Below are positions 3,883-18,022 of a stretch of DNA of 64,000 nucleotides, piece by piece. Numbering within the stretch: position 1 is the first letter of the stretch; each line of letters opens with the position of its first letter. The translations under genes and the position numbers were made by a program. Source of the stretch: Chloroflexota bacterium. GTDB taxonomy: Bacteria; Chloroflexota; Anaerolineae; Aggregatilineales; Phototrophicaceae. Where the stretch lies: assembly GCA_028875245.1 (NCBI GenBank), contig JAPPEU010000086.1, positions 1 through 64,000 of the forward strand, read 5' to 3'. A model generated the notes under the pieces. It saw nothing but the letters and a program-made list of their open reading frames with translations, did no database searches and was not told the DNA's origin.

Positions 3883-4776
3883 ATGAGATCGCTGTCGGCT
3901 GTCCCGATGCGAGTCGCTCAATCGCTGCGCTGGTTTGCTCATATCTGGCGCAGCCTGCGTCGATCGCGGCAAGGCACAATTGGCCTGATGATCGTCATCG
4001 TGCACATGTTCATTGCCGTGGCATCGCCTTATATCGTCCCGTATGCTCACCATGATATTGACGGCAAAAACCGGCTGGCGGCGCCCTCCGCCGAACATCC
4101 ATTTGGCACCGATTCCTTCGGTCGCGATCTCTTTACGCGAGTCCTGCTCGGTGGGCGCGCGGCGATTGGCGTGGCTTTGTTGGCCGCCGCGATCGCGGTC
4201 TTGTGGGGCGGGCTGCTCGGCATTCTGCTCGCGTTTATCGGCGGGCGGGTTGACGAAGTGCTTATGCGCCTGGTTGACGCCTTGCTGGCCATACCCGGCT
4301 TGCTCGTGGTATTGCTCATTGTCGTGGCTCTCGGCACCGGATTCAGCGTGCTCATTCTAACCCTGGGCTACGCATACGGTGTAACGACTGTTCGCGTGGC
4401 GCGTGGCGCTGCCCTGGGTTATGTAGCGAGTGATTTCATCACGGCGGCGCGGGCGCGCGGTGAACGCAAGACCAATATCGTCCTGCGGGAATTGATACCC
4501 AACCTCTTGGATGTGCTCCTGGTCGAATACGTGATGCGGGCGTCCTGGGCCCTGACCGCCATCAGCTCGCTGTCCTACCTCGGCTTCGGGATCGCCCCGC
4601 CAACCCCGGACTGGGGGCGTATGGTTTTCGAGAACCAGGTCATGCTGGCAATCTCCCCCTGGGGAACCTTGTTCCCTGTCTTCGCCCTCGCCAGCCTGAT
4701 CATTGGCATCAACCTGGCGGGTGACGCCCTGTCCAAAGCGATCGGGCTGGACCGCAGCCAGGAAGCGCCGACATGA
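3883..4776 (+). CDS. ABC transporter permease, DppC/OppC type (transporter A)
   Basis: A 297-residue membrane permease. A basic N-terminus precedes the first membrane helix at about residues 30-52. The family motif HPFGTDSFGRDLFTRVL lies near residue 74, followed by several hydrophobic helices. The EAA loop is around residues 185-205 (ARARGERKTNIVLRELIPN). The end of the gene overlaps the start of the ATPase gene by four bases (ATGA), which indicates translational coupling. With the B-type permease it should form the heterodimeric channel. Confidence 0.95.
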   Translation: MRSLSAVPMRVAQSLRWFAHIWRSLRRSRQGTIGLMIVIVHMFIAVASPYIVPYAHHDIDGKNRLAAPSAEHPFGTDSFGRDLFTRVLLGGRAAIGVALLAAAIAVLWGGLLGILLAFIGGRVDEVLMRLVDALLAIPGLLVVLLIVVALGTGFSVLILTLGYAYGVTTVRVARGAALGYVASDFITAARARGERKTNIVLRELIPNLLDVLLVEYVMRASWALTAISSLSYLGFGIAPPTPDWGRMVFENQVMLAISPWGTLFPVFALASLIIGINLAGDALSKAIGLDRSQEAPT

Positions 4777-6872
4777 GCCAAAAGCTGCTAGAGGTTGAAG
4801 GCTTGACGACCGGTTTTCGCACGCAAGCGGGCCAAGTCCTGCAGGTGCTCCGCAATGTGTCGCTCGAGATGCAGCGGGGAGAGACACTCGGCCTGGTGGG
4901 TGAGTCCGGTTGTGGCAAGACCACCTTTGGCATGACCCTGCTGGGGCATCTTCGGCCCGGCGGCCAGGTGATGGCGGGCTCGGTGCGCTTCGAGGGCGTG
5001 GACCTATTTGGGCTGGGTCCAGACGAACTGGCAAAGATACGGGGGCAACGGGTGGCCGTAATCCCTCAAAGCGCCAGTTCCGCGCTGACGCCGACCATGC
5101 GCGTGGGCGAACAGATTGCCGAGGTCTTGACGCTGCATCTCGGTCTTGCTGGGGCTGAGTTGCAGGAACGTGTGCTGGAGCTGCTGACCCGGGTCCACTT
5201 GCCGCAAGTGGTCGAGCTCGTCCGCCGCTTTCCCCACGAGCTCTCGGGTGGTCAATTGCAACGGGTTGCCATCGCCATGGGCCTGGCCGGCAAGCCCGAA
5301 TTGCTTGTGCTCGACGAGCCGACGACAGGCCTCGATGTGACCACCCAGGCCCACATCCTCGACTTGCTGCGGGAAATCCAGGAGTCGACGGGTACGGCGA
5401 TGCTGTACATAAGCCACGACATGGGCGCGATCGCGCGCGTCTGCGATCGTCTGGCGGTGATGTACGCGGGCGAAATCGTTGAGGATGGGGCAATTGACGA
5501 TGTATTTGCCGATCCGGTGCATCCGTATACGCGCGGCCTGCTGGGTTCGGTGCCTCGTCTCTCATACGCTGGCCTGCCACAAGCGATGGCCGGTCGGCCG
5601 CCTGCTCCCGGCGAAGATGCGGTTGGCTGCGCCTTCGTCCCGCGCTGCGCCTTCGCCGATGAGACTTGCAAAACCATTGACCCGGCGCTCGAAGCAACGA
5701 GTCGCGCTGGGGCGATACCCCATCTGGTGCAATGCCATCATTGGCAGCGAGTCCTGGCAAGCGGGGCATCCGGCCAGATGCGCGACCTGAAGGCTCGGAT
5801 GGAACAGGACGCAGAAGCAGAACCGCTGCTCGAACTGACCGAGGTGGACATTACTTATGCCAAGCGTGGTCTGGCCGCGCTGGTGGCGCGCTGGCGAAAC
5901 GAGCCCGAGCCGCCGACGACCGTGAGCGGCTTTACCATCACGATCCACCGGGGCGAAACGTTGGCCCTCGTTGGCGAGAGCGGTTCCGGCAAATCTACCA
6001 TCGCCCGCACGATCGCTGGATTGCTGCCGCCCCGCGCCGGGCAGATTGACTTCGGGGGACAGGATCTCGCCTCAGCAGTCGAAGGCCGTCCGGCTGAGAT
6101 GCACCGCAAAATCCAGATCATCTTCCAAAACCCTGACGCGTCTCTCAATCCGCGCCATACCGTCAAGCAGATTCTCGATGCCCCGCTGCGCCTTTACTTC
6201 GAGATGGACGGTAAAGGGCGTCTGGACCGGTCTGGCGCGCTGCTGGAAGAGGTGCGGCTCACGCCACGATATCTGGAACGGCATCCCGGCCAAATGTCCG
6301 GCGGCGAAAAACAGCGGGTTGCCGTCGCGCGCGCCTTTGCCGCCGAGCCGGACCTGGTCTTGTGCGACGAGGTAACCTCCGCGCTTGATGTTTCGGTGCA
6401 GGCCGCTGTCCTGGAGCTGCTGGCGGGTCTCCAGGCTAACCGGGGCGCAGCCTATCTCTTTATCTCGCATGACCTGGCGGTAGTCCGCGCCATCGCCGAC
6501 CGGGTAGCCGTGCTCTATCAGGGCCGGATCTGCGAAGTGGGGCCAGTGGCGGAGATCTACGCGCCACCCTACCATCCCTATACCGAGACCTTGCTGGCGG
6601 CCGTGCCGGAGCCGGCGCCGGGCGCGCGGGCGCAGCTGCTGGCCAAGGACGTGCCAGAGGCGGAACCGCCGACGCGCGGTTGCTGTTTCCAGCGGCGCTG
6701 CCCCCGCCGCATCGGGTCCATCTGCGACGACGAGGCGCCCCCCAGCCAGTTTGTGGCTGAAGGGCATATCATTCGCTGCCACATCCCGCTTGCGGATTTG
6801 GGGGAGTCACAAGTGGATCTCATTAGCCCAGCCGAAATCGCAACGCAAGGCGCAGTGGTTGATGGCAAGTAA
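4773..6872 (+). CDS. Fused two-domain ABC transporter ATPase, DppD-DppF/GsiA type (transporter A)
   Basis: A 699-residue cytoplasmic protein with two nucleotide-binding domains in one chain. Domain 1 has Walker A GESGCGKT (43-50), signature LSGGQ (157-161) and Walker B LLVLDEP (177-183). Domain 2 has Walker A GESGSGKST (401-409), signature MSGGE (508-512) and LVLCDEV (528-534), where Val replaces the usual Pro after DE. Each half ends in the oligopeptide-transporter C-terminal region with four cysteines (first set at 286, 292, 299 and 321). In a mycobacterial DppD this pattern is reported to hold an iron-sulphur cluster. It powers the two permeases encoded just upstream. Confidence 0.95.
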   Translation: MSQKLLEVEGLTTGFRTQAGQVLQVLRNVSLEMQRGETLGLVGESGCGKTTFGMTLLGHLRPGGQVMAGSVRFEGVDLFGLGPDELAKIRGQRVAVIPQSASSALTPTMRVGEQIAEVLTLHLGLAGAELQERVLELLTRVHLPQVVELVRRFPHELSGGQLQRVAIAMGLAGKPELLVLDEPTTGLDVTTQAHILDLLREIQESTGTAMLYISHDMGAIARVCDRLAVMYAGEIVEDGAIDDVFADPVHPYTRGLLGSVPRLSYAGLPQAMAGRPPAPGEDAVGCAFVPRCAFADETCKTIDPALEATSRAGAIPHLVQCHHWQRVLASGASGQMRDLKARMEQDAEAEPLLELTEVDITYAKRGLAALVARWRNEPEPPTTVSGFTITIHRGETLALVGESGSGKSTIARTIAGLLPPRAGQIDFGGQDLASAVEGRPAEMHRKIQIIFQNPDASLNPRHTVKQILDAPLRLYFEMDGKGRLDRSGALLEEVRLTPRYLERHPGQMSGGEKQRVAVARAFAAEPDLVLCDEVTSALDVSVQAAVLELLAGLQANRGAAYLFISHDLAVVRAIADRVAVLYQGRICEVGPVAEIYAPPYHPYTETLLAAVPEPAPGARAQLLAKDVPEAEPPTRGCCFQRRCPRRIGSICDDEAPPSQFVAEGHIIRCHIPLADLGESQVDLISPAEIATQGAVVDGK

Positions 6873-7089
6873 GCTGACCCGGGGATGCCGCATCACGGTC
6901 GACTGGGATCGCTTGGCGAAAATCATTGCTGACTCCGCCTACAACAAGGAATATGTGACGATAGAGCTCGTCATGTCGCAGGAACCGGGGAATATCTATG
7001 CCGGCGATGAAGCGGGCTTCCTCGCGCAAGCGATGGAGAGCGGGCTGAAATTTCACGAAATGGTGGCGGATGCAAGGCTTGACTCATGA
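6862..7089 (+). CDS. Small hypothetical protein
   Basis: A 75-residue acidic soluble protein (MASKLTRGCRITVDWDRLAK...) that I do not recognise. The chosen ATG overlaps the end of the fused ATPase gene by 11 bases; a longer reading from 6751 would lie largely inside that gene. It has no signal peptide, membrane segment or cysteine pair. The segment VDWDRLAKIIADSAYNKEYV looks helical. It sits 30 bases before the DmpA-type peptidase and is in the same transcription direction, so it probably belongs to the transporter A operon. Function unknown. Confidence 0.55.
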   Translation: MASKLTRGCRITVDWDRLAKIIADSAYNKEYVTIELVMSQEPGNIYAGDEAGFLAQAMESGLKFHEMVADARLDS

Positions 7090-7119
7090 TGACGGAATAC
7101 TCCACAACCAGGTGAAAAT

Positions 7120-8184
7120 ATGCGAAAGCGATTGCGGGATTTGGGCATCACCATCGGTCGCTTGCCGCCGGGAAAACACAACGCTATCACTGATGTGCCT
7201 GCTGTGTTCGTTGGCCACAGCACCTTGATATTCGATGCGCCGCGAGTCGCTCGCACGGGCGTGACTGTCATACTGCCGCGCGAAGGCGCGATCTGGAAAG
7301 ACCACGCCTTTGCCGCCACCCACAGCCTCAACGGCAGCGGCGAGATGACCGGCGTCCTTTGGATCGCGGAGTCCGGGATGCTCACTTCGCCCATCGCCAT
7401 TACCAACACCGCCCAAGTGGGCACGGTGCATGAGGCCTTGAACAACTACGGCTACGATTTTGGCTGGACGGAGGTTTGGGATCTTCCCGTCGTCGCCGAA
7501 ACCTGGGACGGCTGGCTGAATGATATGGCTGCATTTCACGTCACGAAAGACCATGTGTACCAAGCCATTGAATCGGCTAGAAGCGGCCCGGTGGCGGAAG
7601 GCAACGTCGGCGGCGGAACCGGGATGATCTGTCACGAGTTCAAAGGCGGGATTGGAACGGCTTCGCGGATGGTCAGCTGCCCCAGCGGGACCTACACCGT
7701 CGGCGCATTGGTGCAAGCCAATTACGGGGCGCGTGAAGACCTGCGGGTGGACGGCGTCCCGGTCGGGCGGGAGATTTCGATTGACAAGGTCCCCTCCAGC
7801 CGGGCGGAATCCGCGGGCGGGGGTTCAATCATCGTCATCATCGCTACCGATGCGCCGCTCGTACATTCTCAGTGCAAACGCCTGGCACAACGCGCTACCA
7901 TTGGTTTGGCGCGCGTCGGGGGGATAGGACACCACGGCAGCGGCGACATCTTCCTGGCCTTCGCCACTGGCAACCAACTGCTGAACAAAACGCAAGCGCC
8001 TTATGCGCTTAAAATGCTGCCAAACGACCAGCTCAACGGTTTCTTCCTTGGCGTCGTGGAAGCGGTCGAAGAAGCGATTTTGAACGCCCTGACCGGGGCG
8101 GAGACAATGACGGGTTTCAGAGGGCGAACCGCCTACGAGCTCCCGCTCGACGAGTTAGAGCGGATTATGAAGCGGGGTCATTGA
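7120..8184 (+). CDS. P1-family (DmpA/BapA-type) aminopeptidase
   Basis: A 354-residue member of peptidase family P1, the self-processing N-terminal nucleophile hydrolases that release N-terminal D-, L- or beta-amino acids from peptides, amides or esters. The start (RLRDLGITIGRLPPGKHNAI) and the segment GNVGGGTGM near residue 162 are typical. The autoprocessing site is visible as AGGG|SIIVIIATDAP, with cleavage expected before Ser236, which becomes the nucleophile. No signal peptide is seen, so it should act in the cytoplasm on material brought in by transporter A. That link makes a peptide-like or N-acyl cargo plausible but not proven. Confidence 0.9.
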   Translation: MRKRLRDLGITIGRLPPGKHNAITDVPAVFVGHSTLIFDAPRVARTGVTVILPREGAIWKDHAFAATHSLNGSGEMTGVLWIAESGMLTSPIAITNTAQVGTVHEALNNYGYDFGWTEVWDLPVVAETWDGWLNDMAAFHVTKDHVYQAIESARSGPVAEGNVGGGTGMICHEFKGGIGTASRMVSCPSGTYTVGALVQANYGAREDLRVDGVPVGREISIDKVPSSRAESAGGGSIIVIIATDAPLVHSQCKRLAQRATIGLARVGGIGHHGSGDIFLAFATGNQLLNKTQAPYALKMLPNDQLNGFFLGVVEAVEEAILNALTGAETMTGFRGRTAYELPLDELERIMKRGH

Positions 8185-8205
8185 TCCAGTTGCATCTGCC
8201 GCCCC

Positions 8206-8319
8206 TGCGATTTCAGCGCCTGGGGCTTCGACAAGCTACCGGCCGAAGTCAACGATCGCTATTTGAAATACCTGGTAGCGCGCCTTGCTAATGACCAGAT
8301 CGAAAGAGAAATTGATTAA
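8206..8319 (+). pseudogene. Possible remnant of a TIM-barrel glycoside hydrolase-like gene
   Basis: In one frame the gap between the peptidase and the kinase reads as a protein-like segment, ending in WGFDKLPAEVNDRYLKYLVA then RLANDQIEREID and a stop. The pattern WGF...DxRYLxYxVARLA resembles a conserved stretch of DUF4038/DUF5605-type glycoside hydrolases, where it normally continues into a WSLANE catalytic segment. Here it runs straight into an unrelated tail and a stop codon. There is no start codon or upstream domain, so this is best read as a leftover fragment. The assignment is from memory of the family. Confidence 0.35.
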
Positions 8320-8340
8320 ATTCTACTTCGGAAATTCCTC

Positions 8341-9867
8341 ATGTCTTCGTTTCTGATTGGCATTGATGTCGGCAGTAGCGCGTGCAAATGCACAATCGTC
8401 GATGACAGTCTGCGCCCGGTCAGCCAAAACGCTCAACCGTATCCTACACGCCATCCGCAATACGCGGCCGCAGAGCAGGACCCCGAGGATTGGTACCGTA
8501 GCGCCTGTGAAGCGGTCCGCAATTGCTTGGACTCAGGCGGTATCAGGCCAGCGAACGTCATGGGCATCTCTATCGCGGGGCCGGCCCATAGCGTCGCCCT
8601 GTTGGATGGCGCAGGCGAAATTCTGCATCCGACGATTCATTGGTCAGACTTGCGCAGCGCGCCACAGGCCGAGCGCCTCGAAACCAACTGCGGCGACGCC
8701 ATATTCGCGGCCACCCTGTGCCGAGTCAATCCGGCGTGGACGCTGCCCCAATTGCTTTGGCTGCAAGAAAACAGACCGGCCGTTTATCGGCGATTGCGCC
8801 ACATTCTGGTGGTTAAAGATTATGTGCGTTATCGGCTCACCGGGCTGTACGAGACGGATGAGTATGATGCGATAGGCACGCAACTCTATGATGTACATGC
8901 CGGCGCCTGGTCGCCCGCGCTGCTCGAAATTGTCGATTTGGCCAAGGAAATGCTGCCGCAAGTGAGACCGGCGACCGACATCAGCGGTGAGTTGACTGAG
9001 AATGCCGCGCGAGATTGTGGCTTGCTCAAAGGCACGCCAGTGGCCGTTGGCAGCGGTGATTCCGTGGTGGAGGCAGCCGGCATTGGCGCAATCGTTCCAG
9101 GACATTGCGTACTCAAACTTGGCACGGCTGCCAACGTCAACCTGGTCATGCGCGATGCCAAGCCCTCTCCCGGCGCAATTCTTTACCGACATGTCGTAGA
9201 TCCGCATTGGTTCGCGATCACAGCGACCAATTCCGGAACCTCCACTTTGCAATGGTTCGCGGAGACGTTTTGTCGCGCTGCTACGGAGCATCCCGCCGGG
9301 CAGCCTGCGTACAAGCAGGTCGAGTCGCTTGCCGCGGATTCTGTGCCGGGCGCGCGCGGTCTGCTGTTTCATCCATATTTGCAGGGGGAAAGGTCTCCCT
9401 ATTGGGATCCGCATTTGAGAGGCGACTTTGTTGGTATCCACAGACGGCACCGCCTGGAGGACTTTGCACGCGCTATACTGGAAGGCGTGGCATATTCGCT
9501 GCGCGACTGCTTCGAGCTCGTAAGTGATTTCGGTGAGTCAATTAGCGAGCTTTATCTGCTCGGAGGCGGCGCGAAGAGCCAGCTCTGGAGTCAACTGATC
9601 TGCGATGTACTGGGTCGTCCGATGGTGAAGCCGGCTGAACAATCTGCTGCCTACGGCTCCGCGATATTGGCTGGCATTGCGACAGGCCTGTTCGACGACT
9701 GGGTGGATGCTCGACGGGTACGTACCCTGCCGGCCGAAGTATTGCAGCCTGCCGACGAATCGCGGCAGCTATACGATGGCAATTTTGAGGCCTACCAGGC
9801 GGTGGTGCAGGCGCTCCGGCCACATGTTCGGAGCTTGGAAGAGATTGCCGCAAGGGAGGAGCAATAA
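8341..9867 (+). CDS. xylB: FGGY-family carbohydrate kinase (xylulokinase-like)
   Basis: A 508-residue ATP-dependent sugar kinase of the FGGY family. The N-terminal phosphate-binding motif GIDVGSSACKCTIVDD is at residues 7-22. The segment GSGDSVVEAAG near 240 carries the expected catalytic Asp, QGERSPYWDPHLRGDFVGI is near 350 and the C-terminal adenosine motif LYLLGGGAKSQLWSQLICDV is near 400. The overall fit is closest to xylulokinase, but FGGY specificity cannot be fixed by motif (xylulose, ribulose or related ketoses). It is the first gene of a tight operon whose next start codon follows its stop directly. No good ribosome site is seen before the ATG. Confidence 0.88.
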   Translation: MSSFLIGIDVGSSACKCTIVDDSLRPVSQNAQPYPTRHPQYAAAEQDPEDWYRSACEAVRNCLDSGGIRPANVMGISIAGPAHSVALLDGAGEILHPTIHWSDLRSAPQAERLETNCGDAIFAATLCRVNPAWTLPQLLWLQENRPAVYRRLRHILVVKDYVRYRLTGLYETDEYDAIGTQLYDVHAGAWSPALLEIVDLAKEMLPQVRPATDISGELTENAARDCGLLKGTPVAVGSGDSVVEAAGIGAIVPGHCVLKLGTAANVNLVMRDAKPSPGAILYRHVVDPHWFAITATNSGTSTLQWFAETFCRAATEHPAGQPAYKQVESLAADSVPGARGLLFHPYLQGERSPYWDPHLRGDFVGIHRRHRLEDFARAILEGVAYSLRDCFELVSDFGESISELYLLGGGAKSQLWSQLICDVLGRPMVKPAEQSAAYGSAILAGIATGLFDDWVDARRVRTLPAEVLQPADESRQLYDGNFEAYQAVVQALRPHVRSLEEIAAREEQ

Positions 9868-10881
9868 ATGCAAGAACTGAGTATCCGCCTGCCCCAAATA
9901 CCCGACATCGCTCCGCTTGAACCATTCGATGCCGATTTGCTGAGGGCGATGTATCGACAAATGGTATTGATCCGGCAATTTGAATTAAAAGTCAATGAAC
10001 TGTTTCTGCAAGGCATCATGCCGGGAACCATTCATCTGTCGCTGGGCCAGGAAGCAAGTGTTGTTGGCGCTTGTATGGCGCTGGAAGCGGATGATGTCAT
10101 CACACTGACGCATCGCGGACACGGCCAAGCCTTGGCAAAAGGCCTCAGCGCCGATTCATTGATGGCGGAGCTGTTCGGCAAGGAGACGGGCTGCTGCCGC
10201 GGCAAAGGCGGCTCTTTGCATGTCGGCGATATGTCAGTGGGCGCACTGCCCGCGCTCGCCATTGTCGGCGCTTCCTCGCCAATTGCTGCTGGTATGGCAT
10301 TCGCCTTTAAGCGCCAGGAGACGGGCCAGGTTGCTCTTAACTTTTTCGGCGAAGGAACCGTTAATAAAGGCGACTGGCACGAGGCGCTGAATCTTGCGTC
10401 TGTTTGGAAGCTGCCGGTGGTCTTCCTCTGCGAAAACAATCTGTACGGCGTTTCGACGCACATTTCGGAGGTGATGGCGATCGAGTACGTAGCTGAACGC
10501 GCCTCCTCTTATGGCATGCCCGGCAGCACGATCTACGGTAACGACCCCATTATCGTCTTCCAGACGGTGATGGCTGCGGCGCAACGCGCGCGAAGTGGCG
10601 GCGGTCCGACACTCATCGAATGCCTGACCTATCGTCGCGGCGGACACAAACGCGATGACCCCGGCGCTTACCGGCCGCGGGAAGAAGTCGAGGCTTGGTT
10701 CAAAACCGATCCAATTCCAGCTTTTCGCGCAAGGCTGCTGAAGGATGAACGTTTCTCGCCGAGTGCGCTCGATGTGCTGGAAGAAGCTGTGACGGCTACC
10801 ATCGACGCGGCTGTAGACTTCGCGCTGGCGAGCGATACCCCCGCTCTCACGGCTGCGCTGGAGTTTGTCTATGCTGACTGA
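9868..10881 (+). CDS. 2-oxoacid dehydrogenase E1 component, alpha subunit (PDH/acetoin type)
   Basis: A 337-residue thiamine-diphosphate enzyme subunit. The ThDP/metal motif runs from GEG (near residue 166) to CENN (near 190), and GMPGSTIYGNDP and YRRGGHKRDDP follow as in pyruvate and acetoin dehydrogenase alpha subunits. It should decarboxylate a 2-keto substrate and load the acyl group on the lipoyl protein encoded two genes downstream. The ATG follows the kinase stop codon with no gap. A pyruvate, acetoin or branched-chain substrate cannot be distinguished. The setting with a sugar kinase and RpiB-like isomerase may mean an unusual keto substrate. Confidence 0.92.
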   Translation: MQELSIRLPQIPDIAPLEPFDADLLRAMYRQMVLIRQFELKVNELFLQGIMPGTIHLSLGQEASVVGACMALEADDVITLTHRGHGQALAKGLSADSLMAELFGKETGCCRGKGGSLHVGDMSVGALPALAIVGASSPIAAGMAFAFKRQETGQVALNFFGEGTVNKGDWHEALNLASVWKLPVVFLCENNLYGVSTHISEVMAIEYVAERASSYGMPGSTIYGNDPIIVFQTVMAAAQRARSGGGPTLIECLTYRRGGHKRDDPGAYRPREEVEAWFKTDPIPAFRARLLKDERFSPSALDVLEEAVTATIDAAVDFALASDTPALTAALEFVYAD

Positions 10882-11911
10882 CAGAACGGCGCCCGCCCAA
10901 TCTTCAAATCGTGAGCTCACAATTGTACAGGCCTTGCGCGAAGCGGTGCGGGAAGAAATGCGCCGTGACGAGCAGGTGTTCGTGCTGGGCGAGGACATCC
11001 GCATCGGCGGCTCATTTCTGTTCACGCTCGGGCTGCTCGATGAATTCGGTCCCGAGCGCGTTCTTAATACGCCGATATCAGAAGCCGGTTTTGTGGGATT
11101 GGCGATTGGCGCCGCCGTTCAAGGCATGCGCCCAATCATCGATTTCCAATACGGGGACTTCATTTTCACCGCATTTGATCAGATCATTCAGCAATGCGCC
11201 AAACTGCGCTATATGTCGGGCGGCCAAGTCAGTATCCCGCTGGTGTTTCAACTGCCAACTGGCGCTTCTGGACGTGGCGCACAACACGCGAATTCGGTGG
11301 AAACCATTTTCTTTGGCATTCCCGGGCTAAAGATCGTTACGCCGGCCACGCCTTATGACGCCAAAGGGTTGTTTAAGTCCGCCGTGCGTGACAACAACCC
11401 CGTGCTGTTCTGCGTGCATAAACATCTATACGGCAGCAAAGGACGCCAACTGGCTAAGAGCAGCATAAGCCGGGGTCACGTGCCCGAAACAGAATACCTT
11501 ATACCGCTGGGCAAAGGAGATATCAAAAAACGGGGCAGCGAAATCACCGTTGTGGCTAATGGACAGATGTTGCACCGCAGCTTGAATGTCGCCGAAGCTC
11601 TCGAGAGCGAAGGCCTGAGTGCAGAAGTCGTCGATCCACGTTGCCTGGTTCCTTTCGACACCGAACTGGTGATAGACTCGGTAGTGAGAACATCGCGCAT
11701 CGTTATCGTGGAGGAAGGCAATGAACGGGGCGGTTGGGGCGCGCAGTTGGCTGCGGAAATCGCTAACCGAGCAATCGGATACTTGGACGCTCCTGTCCTG
11801 CGCGTTGCATCGCCCAATGTCCCAATACCATTTTCACCCGTTTTGGAGAGTGCTGTCATTCCGGGTGAATCACGAATCCGCAGCGCAATCCTTGAACTGA
11901 TGGATCAATGA
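10871..11911 (+). CDS. 2-oxoacid dehydrogenase E1 component, beta subunit
   Basis: A 346-residue beta subunit completing the E1 heterotetramer. Transketolase-type pyrimidine-binding features are present: VLGEDIRIGG near residue 38, LNTPISEAGFVGLAIGAA near 62, and HSVET-like HANSVE near 138. The C-terminal transketolase domain starts near 215 (EITVVANGQM). ATG at 10871 is preferred over an in-frame TTG at 10865, and it overlaps the alpha gene by 11 bases. Both subunits are of normal length with intact motifs. Confidence 0.92.
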   Translation: MLTDRTAPAQSSNRELTIVQALREAVREEMRRDEQVFVLGEDIRIGGSFLFTLGLLDEFGPERVLNTPISEAGFVGLAIGAAVQGMRPIIDFQYGDFIFTAFDQIIQQCAKLRYMSGGQVSIPLVFQLPTGASGRGAQHANSVETIFFGIPGLKIVTPATPYDAKGLFKSAVRDNNPVLFCVHKHLYGSKGRQLAKSSISRGHVPETEYLIPLGKGDIKKRGSEITVVANGQMLHRSLNVAEALESEGLSAEVVDPRCLVPFDTELVIDSVVRTSRIVIVEEGNERGGWGAQLAAEIANRAIGYLDAPVLRVASPNVPIPFSPVLESAVIPGESRIRSAILELMDQ

Positions 11912-11912
11912 C

Positions 11913-12452
11913 ATGCGCGTAGAGATTTTGGTGCCACAGATTGGAGAAGCAGTCGCCGAATTGATATTAGTTGCCTGGCATAAGCATGTCGGCGACAAAA
12001 TTGAGAAGGGCGACCTGCTTTTTGAGATCGACTCGGACAAAGCAATTGTCGAGGTGGATGCCTTCGTCGACGGGACCTTAACCCAAATTATCGAGCCGGA
12101 CCAAAGCGCCGTCATGCCGCAACAGGTGGTCGCGATAATTGAAACGGCGGCGGACATTTCCCAGGTCGAAAGCCGAGGCTACAGAGCGGGTATCGCTGCG
12201 TCTCCGTATGCCGCTGCGGCGGAAAACAGGGGAGTCCTAATCGAGAAAAGCCATACAACCGAAGATGAAGCAAAAACACTCAATGATGAACACAGAAAAA
12301 CTGCAGGACCTAAGATCTCGCCAAAAGCGAGGCGCTTAGCAAAGCAGGCGAGCGTTGATTGGACAAGCATCACGGGCAGCGGTAGCAATGGCATGATCCT
12401 CGTCAGCGATATCGAACGAGCAATCGAAGCGAAATGCGGGAGGAATCCATAG
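11913..12452 (+). CDS. Lipoyl-domain and subunit-binding-domain protein lacking the E2 catalytic domain
   Basis: A 179-residue protein with a biotinyl/lipoyl domain at residues 1-80 and the lipoylation motif DSDKA (Lys43). A linker at about 81-132 is followed by a peripheral subunit-binding domain at about 134-172 (KISPKARRLAKQASVDW, GSGSNGMI). A normal dihydrolipoamide acyltransferase continues for another 220 or so residues with an HxxxDG active site; here the gene stops. The next start is the PhyH-family gene, and the bases between show no catalytic domain in any frame I read. It may act as a swinging-arm carrier that passes its acyl group to an E2 encoded elsewhere. Confidence 0.85.
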   Translation: MRVEILVPQIGEAVAELILVAWHKHVGDKIEKGDLLFEIDSDKAIVEVDAFVDGTLTQIIEPDQSAVMPQQVVAIIETAADISQVESRGYRAGIAASPYAAAAENRGVLIEKSHTTEDEAKTLNDEHRKTAGPKISPKARRLAKQASVDWTSITGSGSNGMILVSDIERAIEAKCGRNP

Positions 12453-12501
12453 ACCTATTGGGGAGACTCAAGATGCGGCAATCAACAAGGAGAAAATGCT
12501 A

Positions 12502-13254
12502 ATGTTGACAGAAGAACAGAAGTTTGCCTTTGACCTTAAGGGCTATGTTGTCCTGCCCGGTGTACTCGAGCCGGATCTTGTTGATCGCTTAAGATCCCGT
12601 ACGAAAATGCTGGAGAACGATCCGGAGTCGCTGCCTGCGCATGAACGGTCATTGCCCGGCGGCCCGTTCGCCGAACTGATCGATCATCCTGCCGTCATTG
12701 ATCTGCTGGAATTCACCATCTCCAGCAATCCGGAAAAGTGGCGGTTGGAAAGCACATTCGTCAGCGTGCGCAAACACGGCGATCAAGGCATAGGCCCCCA
12801 CGGTGGTGGACCGACGCTGAACCCCAATTACCATTATCATGCTTACAACAACAAGATCTATACCGGCATGCTGCGCGTGGTTTTCGAATTGAACGAAGTG
12901 GTGTATGACAAGGGTGGAACACTATTTATGGCTGGTTCGCATAAATCCAACTTCAAGGTTCCTAAAAGCATCTTTGATAAGAGCAGGCGCGAAGAAGTGA
13001 CCAAGTCTTTTCTCTTTGATCGCTATGCTTGCCCGCCGGGGTCTATCGTTGCCTTTGCCGAGGCGGTATGCCATTCCGGCAATACTTGGGAACTGAAGGA
13101 GCACAACCGCATTGCGGTTTTCTACGCCTACAATCATGTGAACGTGCGCCACCACAAACCCAGATTTGATCAAGCCGTGATCGATGGCTTAAGCACGGAA
13201 CGTCAGGCATTCTTCCGAGAAGTGTATCATCCGCTCTTTGATCGTCGTTACTAG
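12502..13254 (+). CDS. Phytanoyl-CoA dioxygenase (PhyH)-family protein
   Basis: A 250-residue member of the PhyH superfamily of non-haem iron, 2-oxoglutarate-dependent oxygenases. The family signatures GPHGGGPT near residue 97, GTLFMAGSHKSNF near 139 and CPPGSIVAFAEAVCHSGN near 178 are visible. Where classical members have His-x-Asp as iron ligands, this one reads His-Gly-Gly. The distal His is probably in AVCHSGN. ATG at 12502 is preferred over 12496 because the AAGGAG site at 12487-12492 then has a 9-base spacer instead of 3. Substrate unknown; hydroxylation of a small acid or sugar derivative is the usual guess. Confidence 0.85.
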   Translation: MLTEEQKFAFDLKGYVVLPGVLEPDLVDRLRSRTKMLENDPESLPAHERSLPGGPFAELIDHPAVIDLLEFTISSNPEKWRLESTFVSVRKHGDQGIGPHGGGPTLNPNYHYHAYNNKIYTGMLRVVFELNEVVYDKGGTLFMAGSHKSNFKVPKSIFDKSRREEVTKSFLFDRYACPPGSIVAFAEAVCHSGNTWELKEHNRIAVFYAYNHVNVRHHKPRFDQAVIDGLSTERQAFFREVYHPLFDRRY

Positions 13255-13286
13255 CTTTAGTGTGAGGCGGAAGGCGCCAATAACTG

Positions 13287-13694
13287 ATGATGCGCCAAAT
13301 AACTGTCGCAACTGAACTAAAGACTCAGGTAATAGACCTGACTGAACAATGCCAATCAATGATCGGCAATGTGAAAAACGGACTCGCCGTCTTTTACCTG
13401 ACGCATACCACCGCGGCGCTGATTCTCTGTGAAGATGACGCGGATCTGCGGGAAGATCTTGTCAAGATAGCGGAAAACTGGCTGCGCGAAATGCGGCCGT
13501 TTCGACACGCTCGGCGCAGCAATCCCAATGCTGAAGCGCATATTCTGAGCGCTTTTGCCGGCGCATCACTCGCGGTCCCGATCGTTAGCGGCAAGCTTGC
13601 CTTGGGCGTCTGGCAAAATATCCTGCTGCTAGAGCTGGACGGCCCGAATCAGCGTAAGATCACTTGTATGACTATTGAGACAGCTCAGCGCTAG
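13287..13694 (+). CDS. YjbQ/UPF0047-family protein
   Basis: A 135-residue protein of the YjbQ (UPF0047, YjbQ-type secondary thiamine-phosphate synthase) family. The family segments are clear: FYLTHTTAALILCEDDADLR near residue 36, and AHILSAFAGASLAVPIVSGK followed by LALGVWQNILLLELDGP in the second half. Family members have been linked to weak thiamine-phosphate synthase activity, and the true role is debated. It follows the oxygenase gene by 32 bases within the E1 operon, whose E1 enzyme needs thiamine diphosphate, so a cofactor link is possible. ATGATG gives two possible starts three bases apart. Confidence 0.88.
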   Translation: MMRQITVATELKTQVIDLTEQCQSMIGNVKNGLAVFYLTHTTAALILCEDDADLREDLVKIAENWLREMRPFRHARRSNPNAEAHILSAFAGASLAVPIVSGKLALGVWQNILLLELDGPNQRKITCMTIETAQR

Positions 13695-13734
13695 ACAGGG
13701 CTACGGCAATTCGGTGAGCGGAAAGAGAAAGCCT

Positions 13735-14205
13735 ATGAAGATTGCAATCGGCTGCGATGACGCGGGTGAATCGCTTCTTCAGGTTGTAGAAGAACTGCTG
13801 CGTGATCAGAGCGGCGTCGACATTATCAATCTCAGCGTTGTGGAAACCGACGCCGTTGAGCATTACCCTGATGTCGCCGAGCGCGTCGCTCTGGCTGTGG
13901 CCGAGGACAGCTGTGAACGCGGTATTCTTGTTTGTGGCACGGGCATCGGCATGGCGATCACCGCCTGCAAAGTTCCCGGAATCCGCGCCGCGCTCTGTCA
14001 CGACACATACTCAGCGGAGCGCTCCCGCAAGAGCAACAACGCGCAGATCTTGACCATGGGCGCGCGCGTGATTGGTCCCGAACTCGCCAAGTCCATCGTG
14101 GAAACGTGGCTTGTATCTGAGTTCGACGATCGCAGTCCTTCGGCTCCGAAGGTGCGGCGTATGGACGAGATTGATTCGAAGTACCTAAAGCCGCCCGGTA
14201 AATGA
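13735..14205 (+). CDS. rpiB: RpiB/LacAB-family sugar-phosphate isomerase
   Basis: A 156-residue aldose-ketose isomerase of the RpiB/LacA/LacB family. The N-terminus MKIAIGCDDAGE, the segment GILVCGTGIGM with the catalytic Cys near residue 64, and ALCHDTYSAERSRKSNNAQI with the substrate-binding His/Arg/Asn residues are all present. The ATG at 13735 fits the family start; an upstream reading from 13675 would add an unrelated N-terminus. In this operon, next to an FGGY kinase, it could interconvert ribose-5-phosphate/ribulose-5-phosphate or a tetrose or hexose phosphate. Members acting on erythrose phosphates are known. Confidence 0.9.
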   Translation: MKIAIGCDDAGESLLQVVEELLRDQSGVDIINLSVVETDAVEHYPDVAERVALAVAEDSCERGILVCGTGIGMAITACKVPGIRAALCHDTYSAERSRKSNNAQILTMGARVIGPELAKSIVETWLVSEFDDRSPSAPKVRRMDEIDSKYLKPPGK

Positions 14206-14206
14206 G

Positions 14207-14566
14207 CCCGCGATATTTCACAGCAGCGCGGCCTTGGGAGCATCGATAAAGGGGCTCAAACAGCTGGATATTGAAACGTTGATTTCGGGTCATGGGCCGG
14301 TGCTGCATGAGCAAGCGGTCATTCAAGATTGGCTGAACTGGACAAGCAGGTACGTAAGTGGCGTTCGAAGCGCCGTTAGGAGCATGATCGCGGCTGGCGA
14401 GCGTGACCGCGGGGCCATACTGGCGGCGATCAGCTACGACGAATACGTGGGCGATCGGCTGCCGGTGGACAAACACGGCATGCCCAAACGCCACCGCAAT
14501 GCCGTGGGGAAGATCGCGGATGAGGAGATGGCGGCGAGCACCGGCGCGAGGCGGCATCCGCCTTAA
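14207..14566 (+). pseudogene. C-terminal remnant of an MBL-fold metallo-hydrolase gene
   Basis: The frame is open from the end of the rpiB gene and reads EPAIFHSSAALGASIKGLKQ, then LDIETLISGHGPVLHEQAVI, which is the conserved last part of MBL-fold hydrolases (the GHGP segment), and continues to DEEMAASTGARRHPP. There is no N-terminal HxHxDH domain and no credible start codon (only a TTG at 14234). I read it as a truncated gene, abutting another decayed gene. Confidence 0.5.
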
Positions 14567-14571
14567 GCATC

Positions 14572-14927
14572 GAGACTGCGTATTCACGCCTGGACGATAT
14601 GCTGGCTGATCCCCGCATTCATGCCGTTTCGATTTGTCATAAGCCGATGGCGGTGGCAGCGGCGGGAGCATCCATGCAGGCGAAGATGGTTATGTGGTCT
14701 TTGGCAATGCTTCAAACGAGCCGCCTGCCCAACAAGCCTACCCCGTGCCGAGCTTGTCAGGTTACGCACTCGAATTGGCTGCCTTTGCCGACTACATAGA
14801 AGACGATAATGTCGTCCCGACCACAGGCGCGAGCGAACGGACTACGCTTAGTATTGTGCAGGCCGGTTACGAGTCCATCGAAAACGGCAAGCCGATTGAT
14901 CTCGACCAGTGTTTCGGCGCGCTCTGA
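14572..14927 (+). pseudogene. Decayed Gfo/Idh/MocA-family dehydrogenase gene (deletion and frameshift)
   Basis: Two pieces in different frames fit one protein family. The first (14572 to about 14660) reads ETAYSRLDDMLADPRIHAVS then ICHKPMAVAAAG, the N-terminal Rossmann part around the conserved MLADPxIDAVSI segment. The second (about 14660-14927) reads GEDGYVVFGNASNEPP, then ELAAFADYIEDD and TTGASERTTLSIVQAGYES to a stop, the typical C-terminus. The middle two thirds is missing. An intact 77-codon reading from GTG 14694 is unlikely to be functional. Confidence 0.6.
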
Positions 14928-14943
14928 GCACGAACGCAAATGA

Positions 14944-15771
14944 TTATTCCAGTCTCACACCTGCCTGGTCCGCTGCTTTCCGCAGATGGGACAGACTGGC
15001 TCGCGCTTCTTCGGGCGAAAACATGTGCTCCAAAATCAGCCAGCTGTCATCGGGCAGATGTGGCGCCATCAATCGAAGCATTTGTGACCAGTCGGTTGTA
15101 TCTTCTGTAATTGGCGCCAACTCTACATGTATGTGAAACCCTTCCTTAAGCGCGACGCCCTTGATGTGTCCCAAGCCGTAGTGACCGGCCAGCCCGTTAC
15201 AGATATGCTCGACTTTCGGCGCGGGATCCCAAAGGTCCTGATAGGTGTACAAACTGGTCACATCGATATTGCAGCGCAGGGCGTCCGATCCGCCAGCCAG
15301 TTCTTTCAGCCGCAGGAAACTCTCCGGCGAATTGACCGCCGTCTTCAAATAGGGCTCGATCGACAGTTTGGACTTGTGTCGCTCTGCTAATTCCAGCATT
15401 GGCTTCAGCGCTTCCGCCACCGCTGCCAACGATTCATCCATGAAATTGCGGGAATCGGCGGCGCCAAAGCCTGAAGGATGGTAGTTGCCGCCATTGATGA
15501 CGATATAGGCGCAGCCAGTATCCGCCGCCAATGGAATCGCACTGGCGAACATTTCTGTCTGTCGCGTTTGCGCCTCGCTATCGACCGACAGCGGATTGAA
15601 GCCGAATGCGCCAATCTGACAGACCTCCAAACCCCGCTCTCGCAACGGCGCGAGCGTCGCGTCCACGCCATCGTTGACTAACTGATCCGCTGAGATCGGA
15701 ACGCCTTTGATCCCGTGCTCGACGGCGACATCATGTGTGTGCTTGCCGACTTCTACACCCAATCGCATCAC
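14944..15771 (-). CDS. TIM-barrel sugar isomerase/epimerase
   Basis: A 275-residue xylose-isomerase-like TIM-barrel protein and the last gene of the long minus-strand operon that begins at 27868. Metal-site-type segments are seen at YIVINGGNYH near residue 90, KLSIEPYL near 135, CNIDVTSL near 165 and LILEHM near 250. It follows two Gfo/Idh/MocA dehydrogenases at a spacing of 7 bases, a combination common in catabolism of modified or keto sugars. The substrate is not identifiable. Confidence 0.85.
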   Translation of the reverse strand: MMRLGVEVGKHTHDVAVEHGIKGVPISADQLVNDGVDATLAPLRERGLEVCQIGAFGFNPLSVDSEAQTRQTEMFASAIPLAADTGCAYIVINGGNYHPSGFGAADSRNFMDESLAAVAEALKPMLELAERHKSKLSIEPYLKTAVNSPESFLRLKELAGGSDALRCNIDVTSLYTYQDLWDPAPKVEHICNGLAGHYGLGHIKGVALKEGFHIHVELAPITEDTTDWSQMLRLMAPHLPDDSWLILEHMFSPEEARASLSHLRKAADQAGVRLE

Positions 15772-15778
15772 TTTATCC

Positions 15779-16792
15779 TCACGCTATGTCCAACATGACT
15801 TTATTCCCGCTGCGCGCCGATCTGGTGACTGCATCGGCGATGGCGACAGACAGCATGCCGTCTTCAATGGTGGCCCGCGGCTGCTCGCCCTTGCTCAGGC
15901 ACTCGAAGAAATGGGTGAAGGCCTGCGTGTACCGCGTCGTGCCGAGGATCTCCGGCGGCTGCGTAAACGTGCTGACGGTATCTCCGCTGCGCTTCGCCCA
16001 AGTCAGCGAGTCCCACATATGATGGCGACCGCGCAAACGCGCTTGGCCATGCTCGGTGGTGATGTCAATCCGAGGGAAATCCCAGTGTCCATTTGCGCCA
16101 TAACCGCCGACTGTGAGCGCAGCGATGGCGCCGCTTTCGAATTTCAACGATATCGCGGCGGCTTCTTCCGCCGGGCGGCCAACGAATTGCGCCGCTTCCG
16201 CTGTCAAGGAAACCGGCTTGCCCATGAGATAGCAGACCGCGTCAAAGAGATGACAAGAGTTTTCATTGAACATGCCGTTGCCGTTTTCCGGATCCCAAAA
16301 CCAGCCGTTTGCCGATGGCAGGTAATCAAATACATATTCACCGTTGAGCATCCAGCATTCACCCAGTTCATCCGACATCAGTTGCTTCAGGCGCGCGATA
16401 GCGGGATGGAAGCGAAAGCTGAACCCGAGCATCACCGCAGCGTCATGCCGCCGACAAATGTCCTCCAGTTGCGCCGCATGAGTCGGGTTGCTCGCCCAGG
16501 GTTTCTCCACGAACATGGCAATGCCGCGCGCCGCCGCCTGCTCGATGATCTCGGCGCGCGACGTTGGCGCCGTGGCGATGACGACGGCGTCAAGCGTCTC
16601 GCTCGCGAACATTTCATCACTGGAGCGATAGGCTCTGGCGCCATAGCGGGCGGCGTATGTGTCCAGGCCTTCGGCGATGTTCGGGTTGCGGTCAGCCACC
16701 GCTACCAGCTGCGCGCACTCCAGATGCGCCAAGGCGCGCACTAGGAATTGCCCGAAGCGCAAGCCGACGACGCCTACTTTGAATCGCTTCAT
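15779..16792 (-). CDS. Gfo/Idh/MocA-family NAD(P)-dependent oxidoreductase
   Basis: A 337-residue dehydrogenase. The N-terminal Rossmann fold begins KVGVVGLRFGQFLVRAL, the segment DAVVIATAPTSRAEI near residue 70 is the usual second half, and the catalytic EKPWA motif lies near 96 (Lys of the EKP). The C-terminal domain spans about 125-330. Family members oxidise or reduce sugar, inositol or sugar-acid hydroxyls with NAD(P). The second of two adjacent ATG codons is chosen because it is 6 bases from AGGAG, which overlaps the stop codon of the upstream dehydrogenase. It probably forms a pathway with that gene. Confidence 0.9.
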   Translation of the reverse strand: MKRFKVGVVGLRFGQFLVRALAHLECAQLVAVADRNPNIAEGLDTYAARYGARAYRSSDEMFASETLDAVVIATAPTSRAEIIEQAAARGIAMFVEKPWASNPTHAAQLEDICRRHDAAVMLGFSFRFHPAIARLKQLMSDELGECWMLNGEYVFDYLPSANGWFWDPENGNGMFNENSCHLFDAVCYLMGKPVSLTAEAAQFVGRPAEEAAAISLKFESGAIAALTVGGYGANGHWDFPRIDITTEHGQARLRGRHHMWDSLTWAKRSGDTVSTFTQPPEILGTTRYTQAFTHFFECLSKGEQPRATIEDGMLSVAIADAVTRSARSGNKVMLDIA

Positions 16793-16801
16793 CATTCGCT
16801 C

Positions 16802-18022
16802 CTAGTAGTCCAAGCCGGTCGTCATGTGATAGAGCTCGCCCGTTTCCGATGATTTTAGCGCGCCAACCATCATTTCCGTGATGTGCAGGCCCCAATCCAC
16901 ATTGACCAGTGGCTCCTTGTCTTCCAGGATGCACTCTACCAGATGCCTCGACGATTCATGGTAATAATTGAAGGCGCCAGGCGCCGGAACGGGCCAGCGC
17001 GCCTTGCTCCGGTCGCCCCGCAAGGGAATATGGAACCAGCCATCCTCCGAGACTTCCGGCAACAGCTCTATGCGACTGCTGATGATTGACGCCTTGTAGC
17101 CAGCGCCGAACAACAGGTTGCCTTCCGTGCCGTAGACGCTGAGAGCGCCACCGCCAGCTCCTGGCAAGATCGGATGATAGATGCGACCGACATGGCAAGC
17201 GCCGTGCGAGCCGTCAGCCATTTCATAAAGCGAATAGGCTTGATCCACCGCTTCCATCTTCACCGGTTCGGTCCGCGGGAGGTTGACGACAACGTCCCAG
17301 TAATTGGCAGCCTGCGGATCGCTGATCTGCGCCATAAATTTGTCGAACTCCGACTCGGGCACGATGAAGTCATCCGCGACCGAAATCTTGGCGTGGGCGA
17401 AGACGGACTTGCACGGTCCGAGCACACCGACGATATTCGTCGGCGCGTAAGGCAGGTCAAATAAAAAACCCCCACTGTCCGCATCAAAGAAGGCAGCTTT
17501 GCCGTAGGGATTGCTGGCCAGCCCGGGCGCATACGTTGTGGGTCCGGTTGCGCCGAGCGAAAACCACAATATGTCGCCTAGTACGCCTTGTTTCACCAGA
17601 TCGCGAAGCACAAGAAAATCTGGATCGAGCGGCGTACTGGAGCTGGGCTCAATGATTGCCTTTAACCCGGCAGCGCGGACGCCATCGCGAATCTTGCGGG
17701 CGTCATCCAAGTCTGTCGCCATTGGCTTTTGAATGAGGATGTGCTTGCCCGCTTCGATCGCCGCCAAGGCGAAGGGGACATGCGTGCCAGGCGCGGTGAG
17801 AATGAAAACCGCATCAATGTCGGATTTCTCCAGCATGTCATAATAGTCGCCGTACTGCTCTTTCGCGCCGAAGACGCGGACGCATGCCTCGGTTCGCACC
17901 GTATGAAGATCGCATACTGCCGTGATCTCCGCATTATCCAAGGTCATGAGATAAGGCAGGTAATAGGCAGCGGCGACTACGCCGCAGCCAACTACGCCGA
18001 TCTTCACTTTTTCCTTTGCCAT
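16802..18022 (-). CDS. Gfo/Idh/MocA-family NAD(P)-dependent oxidoreductase
   Basis: A 406-residue dehydrogenase. It starts VKIGVVGCGVVAAAYYLPYL (Rossmann motif), has AVFILTAPGTHVPFALAAIE near residue 70 and the catalytic segment ILIQKPMATD near 95. EKP is replaced by QKP, but the Lys is kept. It is about 60 residues longer than its neighbour, mostly in the C-terminal domain. The gene begins 48 bases after the FG-GAP gene and ends 9 bases before the next dehydrogenase. Two different dehydrogenases of one family in a row suggest an oxidation/reduction pair, as in 3-keto-glycoside chemistry, but that is inference. Confidence 0.9.
   Translation of the reverse strand: MAKEKVKIGVVGCGVVAAAYYLPYLMTLDNAEITAVCDLHTVRTEACVRVFGAKEQYGDYYDMLEKSDIDAVFILTAPGTHVPFALAAIEAGKHILIQKPMATDLDDARKIRDGVRAAGLKAIIEPSSSTPLDPDFLVLRDLVKQGVLGDILWFSLGATGPTTYAPGLASNPYGKAAFFDADSGGFLFDLPYAPTNIVGVLGPCKSVFAHAKISVADDFIVPESEFDKFMAQISDPQAANYWDVVVNLPRTEPVKMEAVDQAYSLYEMADGSHGACHVGRIYHPILPGAGGGALSVYGTEGNLLFGAGYKASIISSRIELLPEVSEDGWFHIPLRGDRSKARWPVPAPGAFNYYHESSRHLVECILEDKEPLVNVDWGLHITEMMVGALKSSETGELYHMTTGLDY

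Follow-up and report, generated by a model that had tools for sequence, protein, structure and literature searches.

In the window, the 64,000-nucleotide stretch of Chloroflexota DNA analysed here, a sugar-kinase operon encodes both subunits of a pyruvate dehydrogenase (PDH)-like E1 and, directly behind them, a lipoyl carrier that lacks the acyltransferase core of an E2. The components are ordinary; their arrangement is unusual, conserved and recurrent. In textbook complexes the lipoyl arm and the acyltransferase belong to one E2 chain, and this conserved operon dispenses with the acyltransferase half. On balance, we favor the view that it supplies an alpha2beta2 E1 with a dedicated lipoyl carrier acting in trans. 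The genes, all on the forward strand, are as follows.

8341..9867, + strand: FGGY carbohydrate kinase, xylulokinase-like (FGGY_N, E 5.1e-52; FGGY_C, E 1.2e-35)
9868..10881, + strand: E1-alpha, ThDP-dependent dehydrogenase subunit (E1_dh, E 1.6e-74; PDH E1-alpha in the PDB, E 1e-58)
10871..11911, + strand: E1-beta (Transket_pyr, E 1.4e-38; Transketolase_C, E 5.1e-35; PDH E1-beta in the PDB, E 1.7e-82)
11913..12452, + strand: stand-alone lipoyl carrier, 179 aa (lipoyl domain, linker and subunit-binding domain, PSBD; acyltransferase core absent)
12496..13254, + strand: PhyH-type dioxygenase (PhyH, E 9.6e-6; top PDB match 4xcb, labeled 'oxidase/hydroxylase', E 9.7e-8)
13287..13694, + strand: YjbQ/UPF0047 protein, an optional neighbor (UPF0047, E 2.4e-28)
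13735..14205, + strand: RpiB-type isomerase, an optional neighbor (LacAB_rpiB, E 3.9e-47)

The first-pass annotation had described the carrier as a lipoyl domain with Lys43 followed by a PSBD and ending short of the acyltransferase core, and Pfam agrees: residues 4–76 match Biotin_lipoyl (E 1.7e-14), residues 133–168 match E3_binding, the PSBD (E 1.1e-9), and 2-oxoacid_dh, the E2 core, is not found within the 179 residues. A home-made E2-core HMM likewise returned zero matches across positions 4001–18000 of the window. The PhyH-type gene begins 44 bases past the carrier's stop, so no frameshifted core is hidden behind it. PDB matches of the carrier are the lipoyl–PSBD portions of many E2s, and its C terminus falls at the point where an E2 core would start. 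The AcoC-type model PRK14875 covers only residues 3–165, with 57.7 of 307 bits, and the structure model of the carrier has a mean pLDDT of 53.6 (about 80–91 in the PSBD, low in the remainder). Lys43 is part of a DKA motif shared without change by 8/8 relatives. The Pfam family Biotin_lipoyl spans both cofactors, so that biotin rather than lipoate might be attached here, but the DKA motif (biotin domains usually carry MKM), the PSBD in the same chain, the E1 neighbors and the presence of LipA in the genome make this scarcely credible. At the PSBD position that we take to be the basic Arg of the Bacillus stearothermophilus PSBD, all 8 of 8 carriers have Met. This residue was considered as a sign of binding specificity and dropped, because other PSBDs vary there too; 59 other PSBD hits (loci L105, L107, and L108 excluded) have R in 29, K in 10, A in 17, V and P in 1 each, and a gap in 1.

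The neighbors that had been named beside the carrier (FGGY kinase, E1-alpha, E1-beta, YjbQ, and RpiB) all proved to hold the expected Pfam domains. For the kinase, the XylB model gave 378.7 bits against a cut-off of 380.25, and the top PDB match is xylulose kinase 2itm (E 1.6e-67). E1-beta is listed from its ATG at 10871, the ORF tool having chosen a TTG at 10865; against the NCBIfam dxs model it reaches 76.5 of 465.95 bits, far below the cut-off. The columns for the catalytic Glu and His of E1-beta are invariant in 52/52 alignment rows, and we take this His to be the residue needed for lipoyl acylation. The PhyH-type protein, which was absent from the first-pass gene list, is 89–94% identical across 6 relatives; its structure model (mean pLDDT 42.4) was set aside. 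The best NCBIfam match of the RpiB-type protein is NF051858, D-erythrulose-4-phosphate isomerase, at 205.4 bits and below the cut-off of 240. No E3 gene was found among the operon ORFs scanned, as had been claimed; nor was an acyl carrier protein (ACP) among ten operon ORFs scanned, or a CoA-using or thioesterase partner.

For conservation, genome contigs were scanned, which gave 7 further loci with carriers of 168–182 aa and 63–72% identity, all from metagenome-assembled genomes labeled Chloroflexi, Chloroflexota, or Anaerolineae. Across the 34 genomes of the genus surveyed, an intact short carrier was found in 8, a broken remnant in 1 (G397), and neither in 25; intact copies are open frames of 172–186 aa scoring at least 284 bits, the G397 remnant scores 107 bits, and all others score 86 bits or less. 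A class sample of 396 genomes yielded four matches above 300 bits, all within this genus, the next being below 100 bits. Wherever the contig extends, the carrier sits behind the FGGY kinase, E1-alpha, and E1-beta. The tally over the 8 loci is kinase 7, E1-beta 8, carrier 8, PhyH 7, YjbQ 5, and RpiB 4, the locus without a visible kinase being on a contig that starts inside E1-alpha. An orthologue of the FGGY kinase (E ≤ 1e-150) is present in 7/8 carrier genomes and in 0/26 other genomes of the genus, an exclusive tie between the carrier and one kinase orthologue. The suggestion that the whole gene set forms an unusual assembly therefore has to be narrowed: the kinase, E1-alpha, E1-beta, and carrier are constant and the PhyH-type gene is nearly so (7/8), whereas YjbQ and RpiB, with 5/8 and 4/8 loci, are optional and were rejected as core parts of the operon.

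Relatives were checked for a full-length E2 in the carrier's position, and the core proved to be missing from 8/8 orthologues, which speaks against a truncated copy; the carrier gene is intact in 8/34 genus genomes. A recent truncation, frameshift, or assembly error was rejected on these grounds (the same short gene in 8/34 genomes, the next gene 44 bases on). Median pairwise dN/dS is 0.066 for the lipoyl domain (23 of 28 pairs usable) and 0.162 for the PSBD (28 pairs), with 0.080 for E1-beta (28 pairs) and 0.692 for the linker (26 pairs). Purifying selection holds the lipoyl domain and the PSBD and not the linker, and the carrier therefore looks functional. That the gene is a relic, a decayed E2, is accordingly very improbable: decay does occur, in the broken G397 copy beside intact YjbQ and RpiB and in the window itself at 14207–14918, but the frame is intact in 8/34 genomes and both domains are under purifying selection as the linker drifts. 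The G397 remnant (L071 2204–3440, G397:C70) contains stops, and no kinase, E1, or PhyH turned up in 16 kb of its surroundings. The decayed pair in the window comprises a metallo-beta-lactamase-fold gene and a Gfo/Idh-type gene; both are intact in L017, and the sugar ABC transporter genes that precede them there were not found in the window.

Full E2 and E3 genes were then sought genome-wide in the source assembly, a draft of 4.2 Mb, 96.4% complete, in 88 contigs. PF00198, the E2 core, occurs in two places only, neither on the window's contig: a 408-aa E2 on C30, preceded by an E1-alpha and an E1-beta of its own, and a 440-aa E2 on C62 that adjoins a fused E1. Matches to PF02852 (Pyr_redox_dim) lie on C9, in a 465-aa protein whose start looks Lpd-like by eye and which is the candidate E3, and on C53; LipA is located on C49. 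A separate core-only E2 in the source genome was rejected, as PF00198 yields just the two full-length E2s, and in 7 further genus genomes E2 matches are confined to frames of at least 391 aa. As the assembly is a draft, a separate core gene could have gone undetected. Each of the 8 carrier-bearing genomes of the genus has at least two full E2s elsewhere, and at least one is present elsewhere in 11/11 other genomes with core-less carriers (the 7 of the genus, G690, G559, G036, and G553). A shared acyltransferase thus fits, with E2s, a candidate E3, and LipA all encoded elsewhere. Judged from these gene inventories, the operon is best read as encoding a carrier served by a shared E2 and a shared E3, and this reading has, we estimate, somewhat better than an even chance of being right.

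For this shared-E2 reading, we infer lipoylation of the carrier, the partner of its PSBD, the acyl acceptor, and the substrate as follows. After import of a sugar, the FGGY kinase would phosphorylate it. E1 would then form an acyl-anion equivalent on thiamine diphosphate, in our preferred version by cleaving a ketose phosphate, or alternatively by decarboxylating a 2-oxo acid derived from the sugar phosphate. The acyl group would be loaded onto Lys43-lipoate, with the PSBD tethering the carrier to E1, E3, or both. Transfer of the acyl group to CoA would fall to the shared E2 core (C30 or C62), and the shared E3 (C9) would reoxidize the dihydrolipoyl arm. If a housekeeping E2 truly serves this arm, several E1s per cell compete for one core.

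Core-less carriers also occur beyond the genus. A phylum survey of 400 genomes gave 36 E1-beta matches at E ≤ 1e-105, including the window. Their surroundings, searched with home-made HMMs, contain an E2 core in 25 cases, a core-less lipoyl protein in 5 (the window, G036, G690, G559, and G553) and neither in 6, some E1-beta loci without a lipoyl or E2 gene sitting at contig ends. Neither a lipoyl nor an E2-core gene lies beside E1-beta in the fetched stretches of L113, L117, L129, L136, L138, and L147. In G690 and G559 the carrier (179–185 aa) is flanked by E1-beta on one side and an aldolase/SDR gene on the other. G712 belongs to the same family (f64) and has this operon's aldolase/SDR, kinase, and regulator, but a full E2 with DHRVVDG takes the carrier's place there; that a full E2 and a carrier alone alternate within one sugar operon supports sharing. 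The lipoyl–PSBD protein of G036 (L105) is longer (349 aa), and a Pfam search at E ≤ 0.05 detects no core in it. Its C-terminal part was rejected as a decayed E2 core, having no E2 similarity at E ≤ 10, no Pfam core, and no DHRxxDG.

Shorter lipoyl proteins were found as well. The source genome itself holds a second E2-less set on C65 (E1-alpha, E1-beta, an 80-aa lipoyl protein, and two SDRs), and a comparable arrangement, here with a lipoyl ORF of 100 aa, was seen in G553, which is from a different family of the phylum. Both stretches (L022 6003–13778, G000:C65; L148 163–9169, G553:C72) also contain genes that by eye appear RidA-like, M20-peptidase-like, SDR, and amidohydrolase-like. An Arthrobacter plasmid encodes a class II aldolase, a fused E1, an 85-aa lipoyl protein, FGGY kinase (two in this locus), and a sugar transporter; a Thermus thermophilus plasmid (L158 6992–9179) encodes E1-alpha, E1-beta, an 82-aa lipoyl protein, and a TRAP transporter. 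No E2 core lies beside either E1 in the annotated stretch, and T. thermophilus is an experimentally tractable host. That core-less carriers recur, and that the 82- and 85-residue proteins of Thermus and Arthrobacter lack a PSBD, would suit a system in which the acyl group never reaches CoA, the carrier being a redox shuttle with thioester hydrolysis or donating to another acceptor such as ACP. According to the available text of PMC5384830 and PMC6335953, the pepteridine and scleric acid pathways do hand an acyl group to a carrier protein, but they retain an acyltransferase domain or E2-like subunit, and since neither a thioesterase nor a carrier protein appears among the operon ORFs scanned, we consider a route of this kind decidedly unlikely.

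To place the E1s, a 50-row tree of joined E1-alpha and E1-beta (LG+G4, bootstrap and SH-aLRT) was built. The label 'carrier without core' changes four times on this tree, gains and losses counted alike, and all four changes are forced by starred branches. One is the C65 type and the others lie inside a 13-row group that holds the window (support 100/97; 11 carriers and 2 E2 loci). Sister to this group are 9 loci from the window's genus with a full E2 (frames of 388–432 aa), the resulting 22 rows having support of 100/99; four plasmid PTS loci join next with weak support (83/74). An earlier 52-row mixture-model tree, a quick search only, gave the same 13-row make-up plus an outgroup row and left the placement of the PTS loci unsettled. 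Both trees leave out near-duplicates with E2 (L144, L150, L146, L130, L151, L134, and L149), L015 (E1-alpha cut), L117 and L136 (no E1-alpha found), and L158–L162; the 50-row tree further omits L023 and L024, which have very long branches. The E2 label of L124 is from its annotation (acetoin type), the home-made core HMM giving no match. The tree indicates that the core-less state probably arose more than once around sugar genes, presumably by loss of the E2 core rather than by its gain.

The E1 group that includes the window occurs mostly in sugar operons. L105 (G036) encodes a rhamnulokinase-like FGGY kinase, Aldolase_II, a xylose-isomerase-like TIM barrel, and a RuBisCO-like protein; the G690 operon has an FBP-type aldolase, the aldolase/SDR, and a PfkB kinase; and a sister operon in the genus (G371) has a ROK kinase, a cupin-type glucose-6-phosphate isomerase, a sugar-binding regulator, and a periplasmic sugar-type binding protein. 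Glucitol-type PTS genes are found in four plasmid loci and likewise in Pseudoroseomonas. Against a sugar link, the 7.4-kb contig L106 (G532) contains no nameable sugar gene, and RpiB and YjbQ are only optional neighbors. In L105 the RuBisCO-like gene (5250–6605, G036:C10) lies directly upstream of E1-alpha, and its best NCBIfam match is 2,3-diketo-5-methylthiopentyl-1-phosphate enolase, at 274.5 of 409 bits. The sugar argument rests largely on this gene neighborhood and is to be read as suggestive. An ordinary route would have E1 decarboxylate pyruvate, hydroxypyruvate, or another late 2-oxo acid, only E2 being shared, which places kinase and E1 at opposite ends of a pathway. E1-alpha and E1-beta do score highest against PDH models and PDH entries of the PDB, and products of the operon aldolases in L107–L109 could yield 2-oxo acids. 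However, E1-alpha misses the cut-off of the PDH E1-alpha equivalog (317.9 of 393.85 bits), operons composed of PTS, one oxidoreductase, E1, and E2 have no obvious 2-oxo acid step, and the group has a basic loop residue near the active-site His that is absent from the other E1s of the tree; we regard this route as possible though unlikely.

Clues to the preferred substrate, a ketose phosphate, come from an oxidoreductase of 439–441 aa encoded just before E1-alpha in 3/4 PTS loci (not Priestia), Pseudoroseomonas, Aminobacter, and Sinorhizobium meliloti. These proteins are mutually 55–90% identical, and the Terrarubrum member matches only 3upl/3upy in the PDB (E 2.5e-148; PDB label 'Oxidoreductase'), which we take to be the Brucella DXR-II (DRL) structures. 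DXR-II converts 1-deoxyxylulose 5-phosphate (DXP) to methylerythritol phosphate (MEP), and in the available text of PMC3847144 its relatives DLO1 and DLO2 are uncharacterized, for which reason the oxidoreductases stay putative DXR-II. In the window and 12 further loci tested, the search for a DXR-II-like gene came up empty. Plasmid operons in L122, L123, L124, L159, L160, and L162 combine PTS/ABC transport, the DXR-II-like oxidoreductase, E1-alpha, E1-beta, and E2, and the S. meliloti operon with DXR-II-like, E1, and E2 genes additionally has lpdA and lipA. Methylerythritol or polyol catabolism is a possible role for the plasmid DXR-II-like operons.

According to PMC3424233, purified PDH makes 1-deoxyxylulose out of pyruvate plus glyceraldehyde, XylB phosphorylates 1-deoxyxylulose to DXP, and a mutant aceE lifts DXP about 20-fold; QncN/QncL-type proteins are proposed, in PMC6335953, to take a glycolic unit from a ketose phosphate. 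With the DXR-II-like neighbors, these chemistries lend plausibility to an E1 that cleaves a (1-deoxy)ketose phosphate onto lipoyl, and an E1 with a XylB-like kinase neighbor may act in this way. In the E1-alpha of the window family, Lys261-Arg262 follow the conserved His260 in 7/7 members. Lys one place past the loop His is confined to this family (7/52 rows), and Arg or Lys two places past it occurs in 26/52 rows, as one change on the 50-row tree that marks exactly a 26-row group. The basic loop residue weakly backs the phosphate-sugar reading; being spotted after the fact and following descent, it is a lead for mutagenesis only. The fullest form of the argument, that the E1 group consists of ketose-phosphate lyases running DXP-synthase-like chemistry in reverse, fed in the plasmid-borne operons from methylerythritol phosphate by DXR-II-like enzymes, and repeatedly losing a dedicated core, is speculative and in our estimate rather improbable as a whole. 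If it holds, a kinase or PTS would supply a (1-deoxy)ketose phosphate such as DXP, whose cleavage would put the C2 unit on the lipoyl arm as an acetyl or glycolyl group and release an aldose phosphate, for instance glyceraldehyde 3-phosphate, to glycolysis; a dedicated E2 core would be dispensable because acetyl-lipoyl is a normal substrate of PDH E2. Ketose phosphate cleavage by these E1s would mean an oxidative sugar route, and possibly a methylerythritol catabolic route, masked by 'pyruvate dehydrogenase' annotations. A literature search, conducted mostly without subscription papers, turned up no description of a core-less carrier encoded together with an E1 and an FGGY kinase, and none of catabolic DXP cleavage.

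Compared with 2-oxo acid dehydrogenase complexes (PDH and acetoin dehydrogenase), the window has the same E1-alpha/E1-beta, DKA lipoyl domain, and PSBD, whereas its carrier and operon have no acyltransferase core and the setting is a sugar-kinase operon. By sequence, a ThDP-dependent E1 with catalytic residues and a lipoyl Lys with PSBD were found, and an acyltransferase core on the lipoyl protein was not; the system should work like an E1 with a lipoyl arm from which the defining E2 core is absent. AcoC of acetoin dehydrogenase has a C-terminal enzyme domain, whereas the carrier stops after the PSBD. The E3-binding protein, or protein X (1zy8 and 6h60 are among the PDB kin), shares the accessory arm of lipoyl domain and PSBD, and has an inactive core domain and joins a full E2 core, whereas the carrier is without any core. 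LbpA of the sHdr sulfur-oxidation system is likewise a stand-alone lipoyl protein, linked to hdr-like genes; none of these was noticed among the operon ORFs scanned. QncN/QncL/QncM and SclQ1-4 similarly combine a PDH-like E1 with a lipoyl arm, with a C2 unit proposed to derive from a ketose phosphate such as xylulose 5-phosphate; from the available text (PMC6335953), these antibiotic-synthesis systems retain both an acyltransferase domain and an ACP, neither of which is present in the catabolic-looking operon of the window. Both DXP synthase and PDH in its side reaction (PMC3424233) use ThDP chemistry to join an acetyl unit and glyceraldehyde (phosphate) into 1-deoxyxylulose (phosphate), whereas the direction proposed here is cleavage with lipoyl as acceptor, and the dxs cut-off is not reached.

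Another parallel is a split E2 on Phaeobacter plasmids (L120 9001–12622; L125 8989–12619), in which a two-lipoyl protein and a core-only E2 are encoded beside E1 and lpdA. A core-less lipoyl chain beside E1 is common to both systems; unlike the window, the Phaeobacter operon also holds the core-only chain and lpdA, and its E1 falls in another part of the tree. With lipoyl carrier and core there on separate chains, a carrier acting in trans is conceivable. At 3883–8184, upstream of the operon, the window encodes Opp-type transporter components (permease and ATPase) together with an S58 peptidase; of the 7 relatives, only L016 has the peptidase.
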